Origin: an uncultured Bacteroidota bacterium
GTDB lineage: Bacteria > Bacteroidota > Bacteroidia > Bacteroidales > P3
Assembly: GCA_902774395.1 (NCBI GenBank)
Contig: CACYIK010000001.1
Location: forward strand, 62,001 to 126,000
Direction of reading: 5' to 3'
Length of the DNA stretch: 64,000 bases
In this document: positions 25,914 through 55,554 of the stretch, one piece after another
Layout of the letters: the number at the start of each line of letters is the position of its first letter
How positions within the stretch are numbered: the first letter of the stretch is position 1
Made by a program: the position numbers and the translations under genes
The notes under the pieces: generated by a model
Told to the model about the DNA's origin: nothing
What the model saw: the letters and a program-made list of their open reading frames with translations, nothing else
Database searches by the model: none

Positions 25914-28109
25914 TTATCTTATCACCACCACCTTTCTTGCTTGATAGTTGCCAATTTTAATCATATAGGTACCGCTGGCCGGAGCATCGAAGCGCAGTGG
26001 CGTGCCGTAGTCCTGCTTGGTGGCGAGGATGCGGCCGGTGACATCGTACAGCGTCACCATATTGCCGTCGGCACCCTCAACGACCACCTGACCGTTGCTG
26101 GAGTAGACTTTGGCGTTGATGCCATCTACACCGTCGATGCCCTCTTGGGTGATGTAGATGGTGTCGTAGTGATGAGTGGTGATATAGACGGTGTCATAGT
26201 AATGGTTGTTGACGATAAGCGTGTCGAAGTGGTAGGTGTTGTAGATGGCGGTGTCGAAGTAGAAGACATTCACTATCGTGGTGTCGAACATCTGCGTGGT
26301 CATCCTGACGGTGTCGTGGATGTAGTTGTTGATGAAGGTGGTGTCGTGAACGTACTGGTTGACGTACTGCGTCATCGTGTCGTGCACATAGTTATTGATG
26401 TAGGTTGTGTCGTGGATGTACTGGCTCACGTACTGAATCATCGTATCATGGACGTAGTTGTTGACGAAGGTGGTGTCGTGGATGTAGTGGTTGATATACT
26501 CGATGGTGGTGTCGTGTACCGGCACGTAGGTCGTATCGTGCACTGGCACGTAGACGGTATCATATACCACGAGGGTGTCAGGTAGGGTGAACATGGCCTG
26601 CAGTGTGGTGTCGGAGTTGACGGTGAGGGTGTAGGGGTTGTTGCGAACGCCGTTGCTCCAGCAGAGGAAAATATTGTCGTCAGTTGGAATGGCAGTGAGT
26701 GTCGTTGTGCCGCCCAGAGGCACCACGCCGCCGCCCATTACCGTGCCTTTAGTGGGGTTAGCCGATGTCGCTCTGACCAACACACTGTCGATGGCGAAGA
26801 TTGCGGTGAGGGTGGTGTTGCCGTTCAGCACTAGGGAGTATGGGTTTTGCGTGCTGCCGTCGCTCCAGCGGACAAAGTGATAGTGTTCCTCGGTGGTGGT
26901 AGCACTGACGGTGGCTGTGTCGTTGCCGCAGGAAGGATAGGTCATCACAGTAGCGGTGCCATGCTCTGCATTTACCGAGATTTGAGGAGTTTCTATTTCG
27001 TGTAAGTTGGTGAATTGACTCCAGAAATTTGAAGCTTGATATGCCGACAATGAATTGCAGGGTACAATGATGGGCGTTGAATAATTAACACCATCCATGC
27101 AATTAACCATATAGGCTGGTGGCGTATCCGTAAGAATCTGGATGGTGTCGAATATTAATCCATCAAAACGAAAACCTATAATTGGGGAACTTATTACTAC
27201 CTTTCTAATATGTGTCCCATATGATTCAACAAACAATACTGAACTGGGTAAAGCTAGCTGGTCGAAAGTATAGTCCCAATCCCATAATGGCCATCCGATA
27301 ATTCTTAAAACACCGTCAGGAACAACTGTATTTCTGCAACCCAGTATCAAATCGCCATAGCTGGTGATAATGGCATTGCAATTGTCTCTGCTGTCATAAT
27401 ACGGATTGTTGGGGTCAACTATTATTGAGGTAAGTGTAGATACACTTGCACAAGGGATAACACCCCAGCCGCTTGCAATAGCTTTAACAGAGGCTGGAAT
27501 ATACAAAGAGGTAAATGGATTACCCATCAAACACCCTTCCCCAAGCGTTTCAATGGAATCATTTAACGTTATACTTGTTACGTTAGCATTAATCATGGCG
27601 CCACTTTCCAGAACGCGTACAGACGGAGGCAATACCACGTCGCCCAGATAGCATCCACGAAAAGCATCTCTACCAATAAATCGCAAAGAATTAGAGAATG
27701 TTACATTCGACAAAACCGAACAAAAACAAAAAGCTCCTGTACACAAACTATCTATGGTATTAGACATTACAATCGAGGTGATAAGACAATGAGAAAAAGT
27801 ATAGCATCCAATGGCCTTTACAGTATAAGTTATTCCGTTGTAGGATACAGTATCGGGCAAAACTATAGAACCCATTGGTTTTGGATTGCTTCCCCAAAGC
27901 ATTTCGGCTGACACATCCCAAATGCCTAGTCCACAAGCATCAATTTGTGCATCATTAGGATAGGTGACTTTGACATAATGATTAAAAGAATCGATGATTT
28001 TGTAATACAGCGTTTGCCCCGACGGAGCTACCGCAGAGAAGTCATAGGCAAAAGCATTTTGCCCCATCGCCATTAAGGCGGCAATCAAAAGGAATAATTT
28101 TTTCTTCAT
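25914..28109 (-). CDS. BspA-like leucine-rich-repeat surface protein with C-terminal sorting domain (copy 1)
   Basis: 731 residues. Signal peptide MKKKLFLLIAALMAMGQNAFA. Residues about 90-260 hold diverged BspA/LRR_5 repeats (SLRFIGRDAFRGCYLGDVVL, IETLGEGCLMGNPFTSLYIP). Two Listeria-Bacteroides-type repeats follow (HYHFVRWSDGSTQNPYSL, IFLCWSNGVRNNPYTL, about 410-500), then a long stalk of about 10-residue repeats of the form HDTTxxNNYxHDT (about 505-640). The end has a type IX-like sorting domain (VTLYDVTGRILATKQDYG ... MIKIGNYQARKVVVIR). It is expected on the cell surface as an adhesin-like protein. It is paralogous to 52481-54811, with the same leader and sorting domain. Confidence 0.88.
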   Translation of the reverse strand: MKKKLFLLIAALMAMGQNAFAYDFSAVAPSGQTLYYKIIDSFNHYVKVTYPNDAQIDACGLGIWDVSAEMLWGSNPKPMGSIVLPDTVSYNGITYTVKAIGCYTFSHCLITSIVMSNTIDSLCTGAFCFCSVLSNVTFSNSLRFIGRDAFRGCYLGDVVLPPSVRVLESGAMINANVTSITLNDSIETLGEGCLMGNPFTSLYIPASVKAIASGWGVIPCASVSTLTSIIVDPNNPYYDSRDNCNAIITSYGDLILGCRNTVVPDGVLRIIGWPLWDWDYTFDQLALPSSVLFVESYGTHIRKVVISSPIIGFRFDGLIFDTIQILTDTPPAYMVNCMDGVNYSTPIIVPCNSLSAYQASNFWSQFTNLHEIETPQISVNAEHGTATVMTYPSCGNDTATVSATTTEEHYHFVRWSDGSTQNPYSLVLNGNTTLTAIFAIDSVLVRATSANPTKGTVMGGGVVPLGGTTTLTAIPTDDNIFLCWSNGVRNNPYTLTVNSDTTLQAMFTLPDTLVVYDTVYVPVHDTTYVPVHDTTIEYINHYIHDTTFVNNYVHDTMIQYVSQYIHDTTYINNYVHDTMTQYVNQYVHDTTFINNYIHDTVRMTTQMFDTTIVNVFYFDTAIYNTYHFDTLIVNNHYYDTVYITTHHYDTIYITQEGIDGVDGINAKVYSSNGQVVVEGADGNMVTLYDVTGRILATKQDYGTPLRFDAPASGTYMIKIGNYQARKVVVIR

Positions 28110-28414
28110 AATGTTTATTGTATAAAGGGTTAATACTTTCGTTCAATAAACACATAAAAAAGAAGCGCGGACATCTAACTTTCGTTACTTATCCCGCGCG
28201 TAAGGCTCTGGTATGCCCATCAACCGAAGATAAGCAACGCCGAAGCCCACGCTGACGATATATACAGAAAAGCGTATATACACAACAATGGACGTTGACT
28301 GTTGCTTTATCGTGCGGTTGATTGTGAATTTACCAGATTCTACGCGCCGCAGATAAAACGTCTACAACGTCTTATTTATATGTCTCGCCGTCAGGCCCAC
28401 TTCGGAGTCAAACG
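28110..28414 (-). ncRNA. Structured leader RNA of BspA-like gene 1 (candidate attenuator)
   Basis: About 300 bases between the promoter (28421-28451) and the ATG, closely similar to 54812-55106. Features on the RNA strand: a 9-bp hairpin at 28353-28375 (loop UGUAG); a UGCGG/CCGCA helix enclosing GAAU/AUUC; an AU-rich UAUAUA hairpin inside an AGCAAC/GUUGCU helix; then a terminator-like stem (28165-28199, GCGCGGG/UCCGCGC) with UUCUUUUUU. The bases GAUAAG (28188-28193), next to and overlapping the terminator 5' arm, can instead pair with CUUAUC (28229-28234). A last 9-bp stem UGUUUAUUG/CAAUAAACA (28112-28152) ends two bases before the ATG. The ligand or signal is unknown. Confidence 0.6.
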
Positions 28415-28420
28415 ACGATG

Positions 28421-28451
28421 CAAAAATACGAAATTATTTCGAACCTACCAA
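28421..28451 (-). promoter_or_regulatory. Promoter of BspA-like gene 1
   Basis: Minus strand: TTG (28451-28449), 20-base spacer, TATTTTTG (28428-28421). Confidence 0.7.
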
Positions 28452-28459
28452 AAATAAAT

Positions 28460-28491
28460 TTCCCCGCCAGCAAAAAACACTGGCGGGGAAA
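28460..28491. terminator. Bidirectional terminator-like hairpin
   Basis: TTCCCCGCCAG (28460-28470) pairs with CTGGCGGGGAA (28480-28490). It has T-rich or A-rich flanks on both sides and ends the nucleotidyltransferase transcript (minus). Confidence 0.8.
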
Positions 28492-28513
28492 AACTTTTGT
28501 TGGTGATTTTTTT

Positions 28514-28552
28514 TTATCCTATCCTTCCCGGGTCACGCGCTTCTTCTCTCAT
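28514..28552 (-). pseudogene. Remnant of a hepT start (MREEARD)
   Basis: An ATG overlapping the end of the nucleotidyltransferase gene opens MREEARDPGRIG and then a stop. The first seven residues match the start of the broken hepT at 55759 (MRETARD). It is the expected position of the HepT partner, so most of that gene appears to be lost here. Confidence 0.55.
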
Positions 28553-28835
28553 AGATTAGTTTTTTGTCTTGATTTGCAGTTTTTTCTGCCCATGGAAGTA
28601 GTGCTCCCTCTTCTACCAAATCCACCGCACGGTTCAATATTTTCTCAAGGTCCATCATCATGGAAGCGTACTTCAATAGACCTACCTTGGCATGTTCACG
28701 GTCGAACTTGACAAGAATGTCGATGTCACTGTCGGGGCGTTCTTCGCCACGGGCAAAAGAGCCAAAGACCCATGCTTTCTGTACGGGTTGGGTGGCGAGA
28801 TAATCGCTAATCTTTTTATTTATATCGGCATTCAT
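28533..28835 (-). CDS. MntA-type minimal nucleotidyltransferase (antitoxin-like)
   Basis: 100 residues from MNADINKKI. Nucleotidyltransferase fold with GSFARGEERPDSDIDILV (about 24-41), i.e. GSxARG followed by the metal-binding DxD. Such proteins pair with HEPN/HepT RNases in MntA-HepT toxin-antitoxin modules, where MntA inactivates HepT by adding AMP. The HepT frame expected to overlap its end is only a seven-codon remnant. It is a close paralogue of 55740-56036 (same INKKISDYxATQPVxKAWVF start and DKKLIYER end). Promoter at 28855-28885. The frame continues upstream of 28835 but that part precedes the promoter. Confidence 0.85.
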   Translation of the reverse strand: MNADINKKISDYLATQPVQKAWVFGSFARGEERPDSDIDILVKFDREHAKVGLLKYASMMMDLEKILNRAVDLVEEGALLPWAEKTANQDKKLIYERRSA

Positions 28836-28854
28836 GCTGTGATGATTTATTTTG

Positions 28855-28885
28855 CAAAAATACATAATATTTTTGAACCCACCAA
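28855..28885 (-). promoter_or_regulatory. Promoter of the nucleotidyltransferase gene (copy 1)
   Basis: Minus strand: TTG (28885-28883), 20-base spacer, TATTTTTG (28862-28855). The same arrangement precedes the paralogue at 56056-56085. Confidence 0.65.
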
Positions 28886-28928
28886 ATAAAAATGCCTCGG
28901 CAAGCTTTTTTTTGCAGGTCGAGGCATT
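28884..28928 (-). terminator. Terminator of prfB
   Basis: AATGCCTCG (28891-28899) pairs with CGAGGCATT (28920-28928). The minus-strand product continues in TTTTTATTT. Confidence 0.8.
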
Positions 28929-28949
28929 GGGATGGGCTTTGAAAAACAA

Positions 28950-30913: not shown

Positions 30914-30976
30914 TCTTTTTAGCTGGTAGCTGGAAGCAGGTAGCTTGTAGCCGCTGCTTACAGCACAAATAAAAAA

Positions 30977-31072
30977 GGGCAAGCTGTTTATATCGCACCG
31001 CTACAACCAAACACCCTTGCTGTATTCCTACCCTGGGGGATTCAATGGGAGCTGGTCGTATAAGACTTGCCC
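30977..31072 (-). ncRNA. ffs: SRP RNA (4.5S-type)
   Basis: 96 nt. The ends pair perfectly (GGGCAAG with CUUGCCC). The apical domain IV is intact: CAGG, a 3-bp stem GUA/UAC closing the tetraloop GGAA, then AGCA. This is the binding site of Ffh. The transcript ends in a T-run (TTTTTTATTT, 30976-30967), i.e. the RNA stem doubles as terminator. No Alu domain, as in most Gram-negative bacteria. Confidence 0.9.
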
Positions 31073-31151
31073 TAACTCTCTTTTATCGTTTTTCGGCTAT
31101 TGACTCGGGGTTATTGAGGAATCGCATGTTGTTCTGCATCAACTCTCTATA

Positions 31152-52480: not shown

Positions 52481-54811
52481 TCACCTTATCACCACCACCT
52501 TTCTTGCTTGATAGTTGCCTATTTTAATCATATAGGTGCCGCTGGCGGGAATGTCGAAGTGCAAAGGTTTGCCGTAGTCCTGCTTGGTGGCAAGGATGCG
52601 GCCGGTGACATCGTACAGCGTCACCATGTTGCCGTCGGCGCCCTCTACCACTATGCGTCCATCGCGCTGGTAGATTTTGGCATTGACCGTCTCCACGCCG
52701 TTGATGCCCGTCTGGTCGACAAAGACCGTGTCGTGAATATAGACGGTGTCGAAGATGTAACGGTTCAGATAGATGGTGTCATAGACGTAGTTGTTGACAA
52801 TCACAGTGTCGTGGTAGTAGTTGGTAACGAAAACCGTATCGTAATACTGGTTGTTGACCATCGTGGTGTCGTACTGGTAGTAGTTGTTAATTACCGTGTC
52901 ATAGATGTTGACAATAGTGGTGTCGTACTGGTAGTAGTTGTTAATCACCGTGTCATAGATGTTGACGATTGTGGTATCGTACTGGTAGTAGTTGTTGGAG
53001 ATTCGTATCGTGTCGTGGACAAGTTTCATAAAGTAGGCCGAGAGAGTGGTGTCAGATATCACTGTGATGATATGAGGATTATCGATGCTGCCGTCACTCC
53101 AGTGGTCGAAGTAAAAGTCCTCATCCGCCGTGGCAGTGAGCGTGGCCGTGTTGTCTTCGCAGGTGGGCTGCACTATAGCCACACTGCCGTGGTAGCTGTC
53201 AGCGATAGAGACCGTGTACTCCATTTCTCCTTGAATATTGTTAAAACGTTTCCACTCGGGGGTAGTCTGATAGATTGAAATAGCATTGCAGGGGACATAG
53301 AGGGAAATATTGTATCTTCCAGATCCGCCAATGATATATGATGGATGTTCTACTGATGGAGGCTCGAATGACATGGAATGAATTTCGGTCAACATGCTGC
53401 AGTAACTGAAAGCCATACTGCCTATTGTGGTGACGCTGGATGGAATGGTGACGGAGGTCAGGCTGCTACAGTCAGAGAAAGCGCCACCGCCTATTGAGGT
53501 GACGCCGTCGAGGATGGTAACGGAGGTCAGACTGCTGCAGTAACTGAAAGCATAACCGCCTATCGCGGTGACGCTGGATGGAATGGTGACGGAGGTCAGG
53601 CTGCTACATTCAGAGAAAGCGCTATTGCCTATCGAGGTAACACCGTCGGGGATAGTGACGGAGGTCAGGCTGGTGCAGAAAGAGAATGCCCCATTGCCTA
53701 TCGTGGTGACGCTGGAAGGAATGGTGACGGAGGTCAGGCTGCTACAGCCAGAGAAAGCGTTATCGCCTATCGAGGTAACACCGTCGGGGATAGTGACGGA
53801 GGTCAGGCTGGTGCAGTAAGAGAATGCCCTATTGCCTATCGTGGTGACGCTGGAAGGAATGGTAACTTCCATGGCAGTTCCAATATACGCTATCAGTTCT
53901 GTCCTATTTTCGTCTGCATAGACAAAGTCTCCATCTATCACGCCATTCATAGTGCTTGCCCCCCAACGATCACCCGTTGCAGTCCCATGGTACTCAATGT
54001 GCCTTACCTCGCTGAAAGCCCGGGTTCCGATTGAAGTGACGCCGTCGGGAATGACGACGGAGGCCAGGCTACGACAGTAAGCGAAAGCCTCCTCTCCTAT
54101 CGAGGTGACAGTGGATGGAATGGAGACGGAGGTTAGGCTGGTACAGTAAGAGAATGCCCTATAGCCTATCGAGGTGACGATTGATGGAATAGTGACTTCT
54201 GTGGCATTTCCAATATACGCTATCAGTTCTGTCTTGCTTTCGTCAGCATAGACGAATCCTCCATCCGTCACTCCATTTATAGTGTAAGCTCCCCAAGGTG
54301 CACCTGTTGCTGTCCCGTGGTATTCAATGTGTCTTACTCCATAAAAAGTTTCGTTTACAATTGAGGTAACACCATTAGGGATGGTGACGGAGGCTAGTCT
54401 CCAGCAGTAACTGAAAGCCATACTGCCTATTGTGGTGACGCTGGATGGAATGGTGACGGAGGTCAGGCTGCTACAGTCAGAGAAAGCATTACTGCCTATT
54501 GTGGTGACGCTAGATGGAATGATGACGGATGTTAGGTCCGAGCAATCACAGAAAGCATAACTGCGTATCCTTATAACATTGTAGGTGACGTCATTGAATG
54601 TTACCGTCGCAGGTATGACAAGATCACCCGTTGGAGAAGTTGTATAATACGGGCCACTCCCGTATTCATATGTCACTTCAACAGTATTGTCGCTTAGTCT
54701 GTTAAAATACAGCGTTTGTCCGCTTGGGGCCACGACGGAAAAGTCGTAGGCCTGGACAGTTGGAATCATTGCCATACATGCGGCAATCAAAAGGAATAAT
54801 TTTTTCTTCAT
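52481..54811 (-). CDS. BspA-like leucine-rich-repeat surface protein with C-terminal sorting domain (copy 2)
   Basis: 776 residues. Signal peptide MKKKLFLLIAACMAMIPTVQA. About 14 BspA/LRR_5 repeats of 23 residues (VTIPSSVTTIGSNAFSDCSS type, about 85-480), with two interruptions reading HIEYHGTATG. A Listeria-Bacteroides-type repeat (YFDHWSDGSIDNPHIITV, about 565-582) and a stalk of NNYYQYDTTIVNIYDTVI-like repeats follow (about 600-700). The sorting domain VTLYDVTGRILATKQDYG ... MIKIGNYQARKVVVIR is almost identical to that of 25914-28109. It is expected on the surface as an adhesin-like protein. The DNA repeats are near-identical, so copy number may vary by recombination. Confidence 0.9.
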   Translation of the reverse strand: MKKKLFLLIAACMAMIPTVQAYDFSVVAPSGQTLYFNRLSDNTVEVTYEYGSGPYYTTSPTGDLVIPATVTFNDVTYNVIRIRSYAFCDCSDLTSVIIPSSVTTIGSNAFSDCSSLTSVTIPSSVTTIGSMAFSYCWRLASVTIPNGVTSIVNETFYGVRHIEYHGTATGAPWGAYTINGVTDGGFVYADESKTELIAYIGNATEVTIPSIVTSIGYRAFSYCTSLTSVSIPSTVTSIGEEAFAYCRSLASVVIPDGVTSIGTRAFSEVRHIEYHGTATGDRWGASTMNGVIDGDFVYADENRTELIAYIGTAMEVTIPSSVTTIGNRAFSYCTSLTSVTIPDGVTSIGDNAFSGCSSLTSVTIPSSVTTIGNGAFSFCTSLTSVTIPDGVTSIGNSAFSECSSLTSVTIPSSVTAIGGYAFSYCSSLTSVTILDGVTSIGGGAFSDCSSLTSVTIPSSVTTIGSMAFSYCSMLTEIHSMSFEPPSVEHPSYIIGGSGRYNISLYVPCNAISIYQTTPEWKRFNNIQGEMEYTVSIADSYHGSVAIVQPTCEDNTATLTATADEDFYFDHWSDGSIDNPHIITVISDTTLSAYFMKLVHDTIRISNNYYQYDTTIVNIYDTVINNYYQYDTTIVNIYDTVINNYYQYDTTMVNNQYYDTVFVTNYYHDTVIVNNYVYDTIYLNRYIFDTVYIHDTVFVDQTGINGVETVNAKIYQRDGRIVVEGADGNMVTLYDVTGRILATKQDYGKPLHFDIPASGTYMIKIGNYQARKVVVIR

Positions 54812-55106
54812 AATGTTTATTGTTTAAAGGGCTAATACTTTCGTTCAATAAACACATAAAAAAGAAGCGCGGACATCAACTTTCGTTACTTATCCCGCTC
54901 TATAAGGCTCTCGCATTGCCTGTCTTTCGAGGATAAGCAACACCGAGGCCCACGCTAACGATATATACTGAAACGTGTATATACGCAACAATGGACGTTG
55001 GATGCTGCTTTACCGTGCGAAAGACTATGAATTTGCGAGATTCTATAGAGCCGCAGATAAAACGTCTACAACGTCTTATTTATATGTCTGTCATTCCTAT
55101 CGAATG
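54812..55106 (-). ncRNA. Structured leader RNA of BspA-like gene 2 (candidate attenuator)
   Basis: About 295 bases, closely similar to 28110-28414. Kept features: the 9-bp hairpin (55057-55079), UGCGG paired with UCGCA (a G-U in place of G-C), the UAUAUA hairpin with one more pair than in copy 1, the terminator-like stem plus U-run (54858-54900, one A-G mismatch here), and an alternative pairing of CUUAUCC (54931-54937) with GGAUAAG (54889-54895). The 9-bp stem next to the ATG is unchanged. The 5' end differs (ATTCGATAGGAAT here). Confidence 0.6.
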
Positions 55107-55260: not shown

Positions 55261-55554
55261 TCAAACATAGCAACTCTCCTTTGTTATTCTGCTGCGGAGC
55301 AACGGATTCATGTTCTCCCTTACTCGCACGATGTCCACCTTGCATCCTAATAACTCTTCCAACTCACACTGAAGACTGTCCAGTGTTATCAAAGAAAGAG
55401 CTTTGCCTATATAGAAGACGTCGACGTCGCTCATTTCAGTCTGTTCCCCACGGGCCGCAGAACCAAACACGCCAAGTCTTTCAATACCGTAACGGTTTAC
55501 AGCATACGGCTTGAATTGTCCAAGAGTGTCTAATATTTCTCTCGTCGTCTTCAT
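55261..55554 (-). CDS. Minimal nucleotidyltransferase domain protein
   Basis: 97 residues. GVFGSAARGEQTEMSDVDVF (about 29-48) gives GSxARG and DxD of the pol-beta-like minimal nucleotidyltransferases. It is only distantly similar to the two MntA-like proteins in this window. Its ATG follows the stop of the broken hepT directly. A short frame MLYSREKINEI after its stop (about 55233-55198) could be the remnant of its own HEPN partner, but this is weak. Confidence 0.8.
   Translation of the reverse strand: MKTTREILDTLGQFKPYAVNRYGIERLGVFGSAARGEQTEMSDVDVFYIGKALSLITLDSLQCELEELLGCKVDIVRVRENMNPLLRSRITKESCYV

Follow-up and report, generated by a model that had tools for sequence, protein, structure and literature searches.

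Two genes for BspA-type surface proteins, lying within a stretch of Bacteroidales DNA of 64,000 nucleotides (the window), share a long leader, which raises the question of what this leader is and what it does for the genes behind it. Gene 1 (positions 25914 to 28109; Pfam PF13306, E 1.1e-19) encodes an LRR_5 protein of 731 amino acids, and gene 2 (52481 to 54811; PF13306, E 5.7e-108) one of 776 amino acids. Both genes lie on the minus strand, as do all features of the leaders given below. A first-pass annotation had described similar leaders before divergent proteins. This held, since the leaders are alignable from the promoter to the start codon with a mean column identity of 88%, whereas the LRR_5 scores of the proteins are 71 and 356 bits. 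The conserved cores were located by profile match and alignment at 28151 to 28390 (copy 1) and 54853 to 55094 (copy 2), and both are members of one RNA family of ~240 nt.

Each leader begins just behind a TAnnTTTG motif, the Bacteroidetes-type promoter, and contains a hairpin at its 5' end, a second one formed by UAUAUA, and a GC stem with UUCUUUUUUA behind it. For copy 1 the predicted promoter occupies 28421 to 28452 (TTTG at 28449 to 28452, TATTTTTG at 28421 to 28428). The 5' hairpin at 28384 to 28418 is found in the fold at the expected transcript start, and its own arms fit each other better than those of other copies (z −16.9). Both hairpins had been drawn in the first-pass annotation, together with a terminator made of the GC stem and UUCUUUUUU and a second stem abutting the ATG. 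All four are legible in the sequence, the last at 28110 to 28148 (GTTTATTG ... CAATAAAC), with similar stems elsewhere (z −5.4 on 48). Copy 1 folds with a minimum free energy of −103.7 kcal/mol (z −5.87), a value that was reached by 0 of 200 dinucleotide shuffles. Just 5' of both leaders is a small nucleotidyltransferase gene (PF18765/PF01909, of the MNT/HEPN-pair kind; 28533 to 28949 and 55261 to 55554, minus strand). Such genes were considered as upstream partners of the RNA and rejected, as only 5 of the 151 copies examined elsewhere had the motif nearby.

A structure-free covariation scan of 137 unique cores (effective number 113) placed the pairs of three long-range helices, P3, P5, and P6, at the top of the ranking. 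Their best pairs showed up to four Watson-Crick types at 94–100% pairing. These strongest helices were absent from the earlier drawing, which had instead paired UGCGG with CCGCA. That helix did not hold, with 0–30% of homologues pairing at three of its five positions; the CCG of CCGCA pairs instead with a downstream CGG in P5. Among 98 sequences from the whole order, 95% of the cells in the 25 core pairs (P3, P4, P5, P4', and P6) were standard, and 20 of the 25 pairs exhibited double changes. The core helices contained 523 double-change cells compared with 162 (sd 12) in shuffles, a control that ignores relatedness among the sequences. In a second control that retains relatedness, core pairing fell to 26–42% once the partner was displaced by 1 to 3 columns. 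The compensatory changes thus go beyond both controls, as generally expected of a structured RNA, and it is as good as certain that the leaders are a conserved structured RNA family. Conservation and covariation outside the genome of origin, on which the first-pass annotation had staked its proposal, were both found.

The two window copies differ from each other by compensatory changes in all three long-range helices. In copy 1, P3 joins GCGCGTA (28341 to 28347, top-ranked covariation) to TACGCGC (28196 to 28202), replaced in copy 2 by GCTCTATA/TATAGAGC. P5 joins ATCAACCG (28315 to 28322) to CGGTTGAT (28219 to 28226), with double changes in 8 of 8 pairs across the alignment and GTCTTTCG/CGAAAGAC in copy 2. 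P6 joins TCTGGTA (28331 to 28337) to TACCAGA (28207 to 28213), is 99.6% paired with double changes in 5 of 7 pairs, and reads TCTCGCA/TGCGAGA in copy 2. The first P6 strand belongs to hairpin P4 (GAA...TTC, 28326 to 28340) and the second to hairpin P4' (GGC...GCC, 28204 to 28217; stem 100% paired). Because P6 connects two very small hairpins loop to loop, and their stems (GAA/UUC and GGC/GCC) are nearly invariant, it reads as a kissing loop, predicted to span the junction of P3, P4, P5, and P4'. A long-range helix P1 (GACG/CGUC) was paired in ~93% of cells and competes with the local hairpin 20–26/30–36; it was retained solely as an alternative pairing.

The distribution of the RNA was determined with a sequence-only model, R1, built from 33 copies, so weak relatives are probably undercounted in the following numbers. 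In the genome of origin a DNA search gave two full and two partial matches, which the profile resolved into four full copies. The RNA was present in 88 of 120 genomes of the same genus, at up to 8 copies per genome, and in 8 of the 12 genera of the family. An even draw across the order Bacteroidales contained it in 63 of 393 genomes and 34 of 206 genera, and matches outside the family reached E values down to 1e-47. No match was obtained in the ~293 genomes outside Bacteroidales in a phylum-wide Bacteroidota sample, which doubles as a test of specificity. In named genomes, at least 114 stretches matched a pattern scan. Among the pattern matches listed, nearly all came from uncultured Bacteroidales/Bacteroidetes metagenome-assembled genomes, mostly of rumen or herbivore gut and including 'bacterium F082'; the one Blastopirellula record among them looks like chance.

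Two similar copies in one window, before genes that are mutually unrelated among the copies, could also be produced by recent duplication, recombination, or a mobile repeat with no function as RNA. We regard this explanation as very improbable, given the compensatory changes across a bacterial order and the way the RNA keeps its position and direction with respect to genes. Phage and plasmid collections were likewise without match, and an origin from either was rejected on that ground. A single IMG/VR contig (L193, IMGVR_UViG_3300011002_000236) carries a copy before a fimbrillin-like gene and may be misfiled bacterial DNA.

The first-pass annotation had framed the RNA as the leader of surface-protein paralogues, and this framing proved too narrow. 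BspA LRR_5 domains were detected in 31 of 127 downstream proteins scanned. Conversely, the genome of origin has ~15 BspA-type LRR_5 genes (contigs C1, C2, C3, C5, C6, C14, C17, and C19), and the leader stands at two of them, both in the window, which also led us to reject the RNA as a general feature of BspA genes. The other downstream proteins included zinc ribbons, VWA, FHA, HtrA/MarP, PP2C, LytTR, PqqD, sigma-70, and T9SS-sorted proteins, and further genes encode a Tsp45I restriction enzyme, a D12 DNA methyltransferase, and radical-SAM peptide targets. These varied downstream genes gave no hint of a ligand. In several loci (L037, L054, L079, L120, L129, L160, and others) short open reading frames of ~50–80 amino acids with the motif 'EYxAPMVEVxxARVExGFxxSG' lie between the RNA and a gene for a fimbrillin-like lipoprotein, a name assigned by eye.

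A leader position before varied long genes would also suit a processive-antitermination signal, read by a NusG paralogue of the UpxY/LoaP kind and involving no switch. The genome does encode, besides a likely canonical NusG, a second NusG-domain open reading frame (G000:C7:5436-5714, 430 amino acids), a candidate antitermination factor. However, the size of the RNA and its two alternative covarying helices, described below, exceed a recognition hairpin, and the downstream genes lie mostly outside capsule or biosynthesis operons. We therefore consider such a signal improbable.

The position of the RNA relative to promoters and genes points to a role in cis. TAnnTTTG was found 20–90 nt upstream of the RNA in 138 of 163 copies and up to 100 nt downstream of it in 3 of the 163. 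The downstream gene was codirectional in 138 cases and opposed in 5, whereas the corresponding numbers for the upstream gene were 84 and 47. With this fixed position and orientation before a gene and a promoter upstream, a cis-regulatory role is likely. An own promoter, a 3' hairpin with U-tract, and pairing between the 5' and 3' ends (P0, see below) are also what a standalone small RNA would have, one that acts in trans while the downstream gene is controlled separately; its trans target could be the loop ahead of the start codon that matches the terminator flank. We consider this rather unlikely. It does not account for the strong bias in the orientation of the downstream gene or for the scarcity of promoter motifs between RNA and gene, and the loop complement fits the flank of its own copy better than those of other copies.

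The 3' part of the RNA contains strands with two possible partners. Alignment columns 154–163 can pair either with columns 82–92, forming P2x, by which the long arm is extended inward from P5, or with columns 200–208, forming P7. In copy 1 this switch strand is GTTGCTTATC at 28229 to 28238. Its first partner is the P2x 5' strand (GATAA + GCAAC, 28301 to 28311), and its second is the P7 3' strand GATAAGTAA (28185 to 28193, 98.2% paired); P2x and P7 each have covariation of their own. In alignment A3, column 280 covaries with column 125 specifically for P2x (GC 49, AU 25, GU 23), and the P7 partner stays G in nearly all sequences. Column 277 covaries with column 326 specifically for P7 (UA 61, CG 15, UG 17), and the P2x partner there is mostly A. 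Column 274 covaries with the partners in both helices (GCG 87, AUA 6). P2x and P7 are mutually exclusive on one strand and both covary, which is the mark of a switch. The pairing of GAUAAG with CUUAUC, which the first-pass annotation had offered as an alternative to the terminator, accordingly gained support in that it covaries and excludes another covarying helix.

A second choice concerns the predicted intrinsic terminator before the gene. The terminator hairpin T (28165 to 28197) has its 5' arm GCGGGA at 28192 to 28197 and its 3' arm at 28165 to 28172. It was 88% paired, and in 11 of 98 sequences both sides of a C-G pair have changed to give U-A. The 3' arm may pair locally in T or with the upstream GCGUGGG (28246 to 28252) in P8, which was 99% paired (99.1%) and nearly invariant. 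T and P8 share a strand as P2x and P7 do, and each of the four helices covaries to some degree; several of the pairs in P7, P8, and T hardly vary and carry little information. The stem of T is followed by the U-tract TTCTTTTTTA (28155 to 28164), and in 156 copies an average of 6.9 U occupy the first 8 nt behind the stem. The U-tract region (28151 to 28164) is complemented by the A-rich P0 5' strand ACATATAAATAA (28372 to 28383). The P0 duplex is present in the minimum free energy fold and is better with its own partner than with shuffled ones (z −7.9), so part of the conservation of the U-tract may be structural.

This pairing bears on the reading of the RNA as a translational regulator, in which the U-rich stretch would serve mainly as the 3' strand of P0 and the fold would decide, by way of the hairpin or stem that precedes the ATG, how accessible the start codon is. 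The P0 statistic, the stem abutting the ATG (z −5.4, as above), and the fact that many start codons closely follow a loop complementary to the flank of the terminator are consistent with such control. However, a GC hairpin that runs straight into a stretch with ~7 U in 8 nt is the classical form of an intrinsic terminator, and this arrangement persists in distant copies with a weak P0 strand. Translational control is thus an unlikely main function of the RNA.

Taking these results together, we consider it probable that the leaders represent a large, apparently undescribed Bacteroidales family of structured cis-regulatory RNAs, most likely acting by transcription attenuation. The best mechanism on offer is that of a transcriptional riboswitch or attenuator, judged from sequence and covariation. 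Covariation, a 5' promoter, a 3' hairpin with U-tract, and a codirectional downstream gene agree with the attenuator or riboswitch layout that had been proposed for the window copies. In 5' to 3' order, the promoter TAnnTTTG and the 5' hairpin are followed by the long arm, composed of P3, the kissing loop P6 between P4 and P4', P5, and P2x. P2x/T and P7/P8 would swap strands as RNA polymerase moves through the 3' end. With the arm closed, T would form and transcription would stop; with P7 and P8 formed, T would be dismantled and the polymerase might run on into the gene. Which of the two states prevails would depend on an effector, which may be a metabolite, protein, or RNA and perhaps binds at the kissing-loop junction.

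Folding programs applied to the 98 full-length copies returned the long arm in most of them and T in 40, with P7 in 2 and P8 in 2. Since P7 and P8 are rare in minimum free energy folds, it may be that the second state forms only with assistance or goes unpopulated. Folding of shortened RNAs indicated that P2x and P5 form early. P8 also adjoins the U-tract and could itself terminate, so the assignment of ON and OFF states may be reversed.

The 5' untranslated region behind the RNA may add a further element. Many copies, mostly not associated with BspA genes, have a hairpin before the start codon with the loop GGGUAUC, GGGAAUC, or GGGAGUC, and these loops complement nucleotides beside the terminator 3' arm (GAUACCC, GAUUCCC, and GACUCCC, respectively). 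Exact four-base matches between loop and terminator flank numbered 39, compared with 11.6 (sd 2.7) when the partners were shuffled, which suggests a putative further lock in the read-through mRNA. The BspA copies have the stem abutting the ATG in place of the loop hairpin. Two other motifs recur between RNA and start codon, GUUGCGCCCGACACG...GGG in four loci (L113, L030, L092, and L107) and GGGCCGAUGGUAUAUAAC...GGGC in three (L139, L154, and L033), each with a possible GCCC/GGGC stem. A more specific model can be put forward tentatively. It describes a riboswitch-like class in which the kissing-loop four-way junction would sense a signal and strand exchange at the terminator would control, throughout Bacteroidales, a regulon of adhesin, fimbria, protease, regulator, and defence genes. 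The downstream 5' untranslated region would in addition act on the terminator arm through a second kissing interaction.

The family was also compared with known RNAs. Rfam 15, applied at gathering thresholds over the window, reported SRP RNA only; this is the Bacteroidales small SRP RNA (RF04183, 113 bits) at 30973 to 31079 on the minus strand. Rfam searches of 28050 to 28500 at E values up to 10 returned nothing beyond chance, and those of 20 distant homologous loci returned no match. The T-box was without an Rfam match in the window and the 20 distant loci. The earlier remark that no named RNA family fits is in line with these searches. No prior description was found in the literature searched, namely the main text of papers open without subscription, two of which (PMC2864571 and PMC8040213) were screened for motifs from Bacteroidetes, and the family is apparently undescribed.

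A complex RNA with up to 8 copies per genome, present in roughly one in six Bacteroidales genomes sampled and lacking an Rfam family, points to a level of gene regulation in gut bacteria that has so far gone unrecognised. As it precedes adhesins, fimbrillin-like proteins, regulators, proteases, and a restriction enzyme, identifying the effector would tie a signal to functions at the cell surface and in conflict. The bases to mutate can be read off the covarying helices, so ordinary mutants can serve to test the model.

Several known systems resemble the RNA in part. The c-di-GMP riboswitches (GEMM-I and GEMM-II) likewise stand, as one class of RNA, in front of numerous genes with no relation to each other, adhesion genes among them, with several copies per genome, but they are much smaller, and neither has an Rfam match to the Bacteroidales RNA. 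The leaders associated with LoaP (PMC12691694) and UpxY and the EAR/epsC element (RF01735) are similar in that a leader RNA is thought to govern passage through terminators. Size and gene set differ, an Rfam match to epsC was absent, and a link to capsule operons was not found. Among the Bacteroidetes candidates of Weinberg et al. (2010), Bacteroidales-1 (RF01693), Bacteroid-trp (RF01692), and Bacteroides-1 (RF01694) are structured RNAs of the same phylum, some of the candidates being cis-regulatory (PMC2864571), yet none of the three matches the window or the 20 distant homologous loci. The purine riboswitch of Bacillus subtilis yxjA is transcriptional and works by cotranscriptional strand exchange (PMC9756952). 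Compared with it, the Bacteroidales RNA is about three times larger, has a four-way instead of a three-way junction and an unrelated sequence, precedes very varied genes, is so far confined to Bacteroidales, and is a candidate with no assigned ligand. The two have in common a 5' leader, a kissing loop of two hairpins near a junction, and a terminator arm that competes with an upstream helix (PMC9756952).
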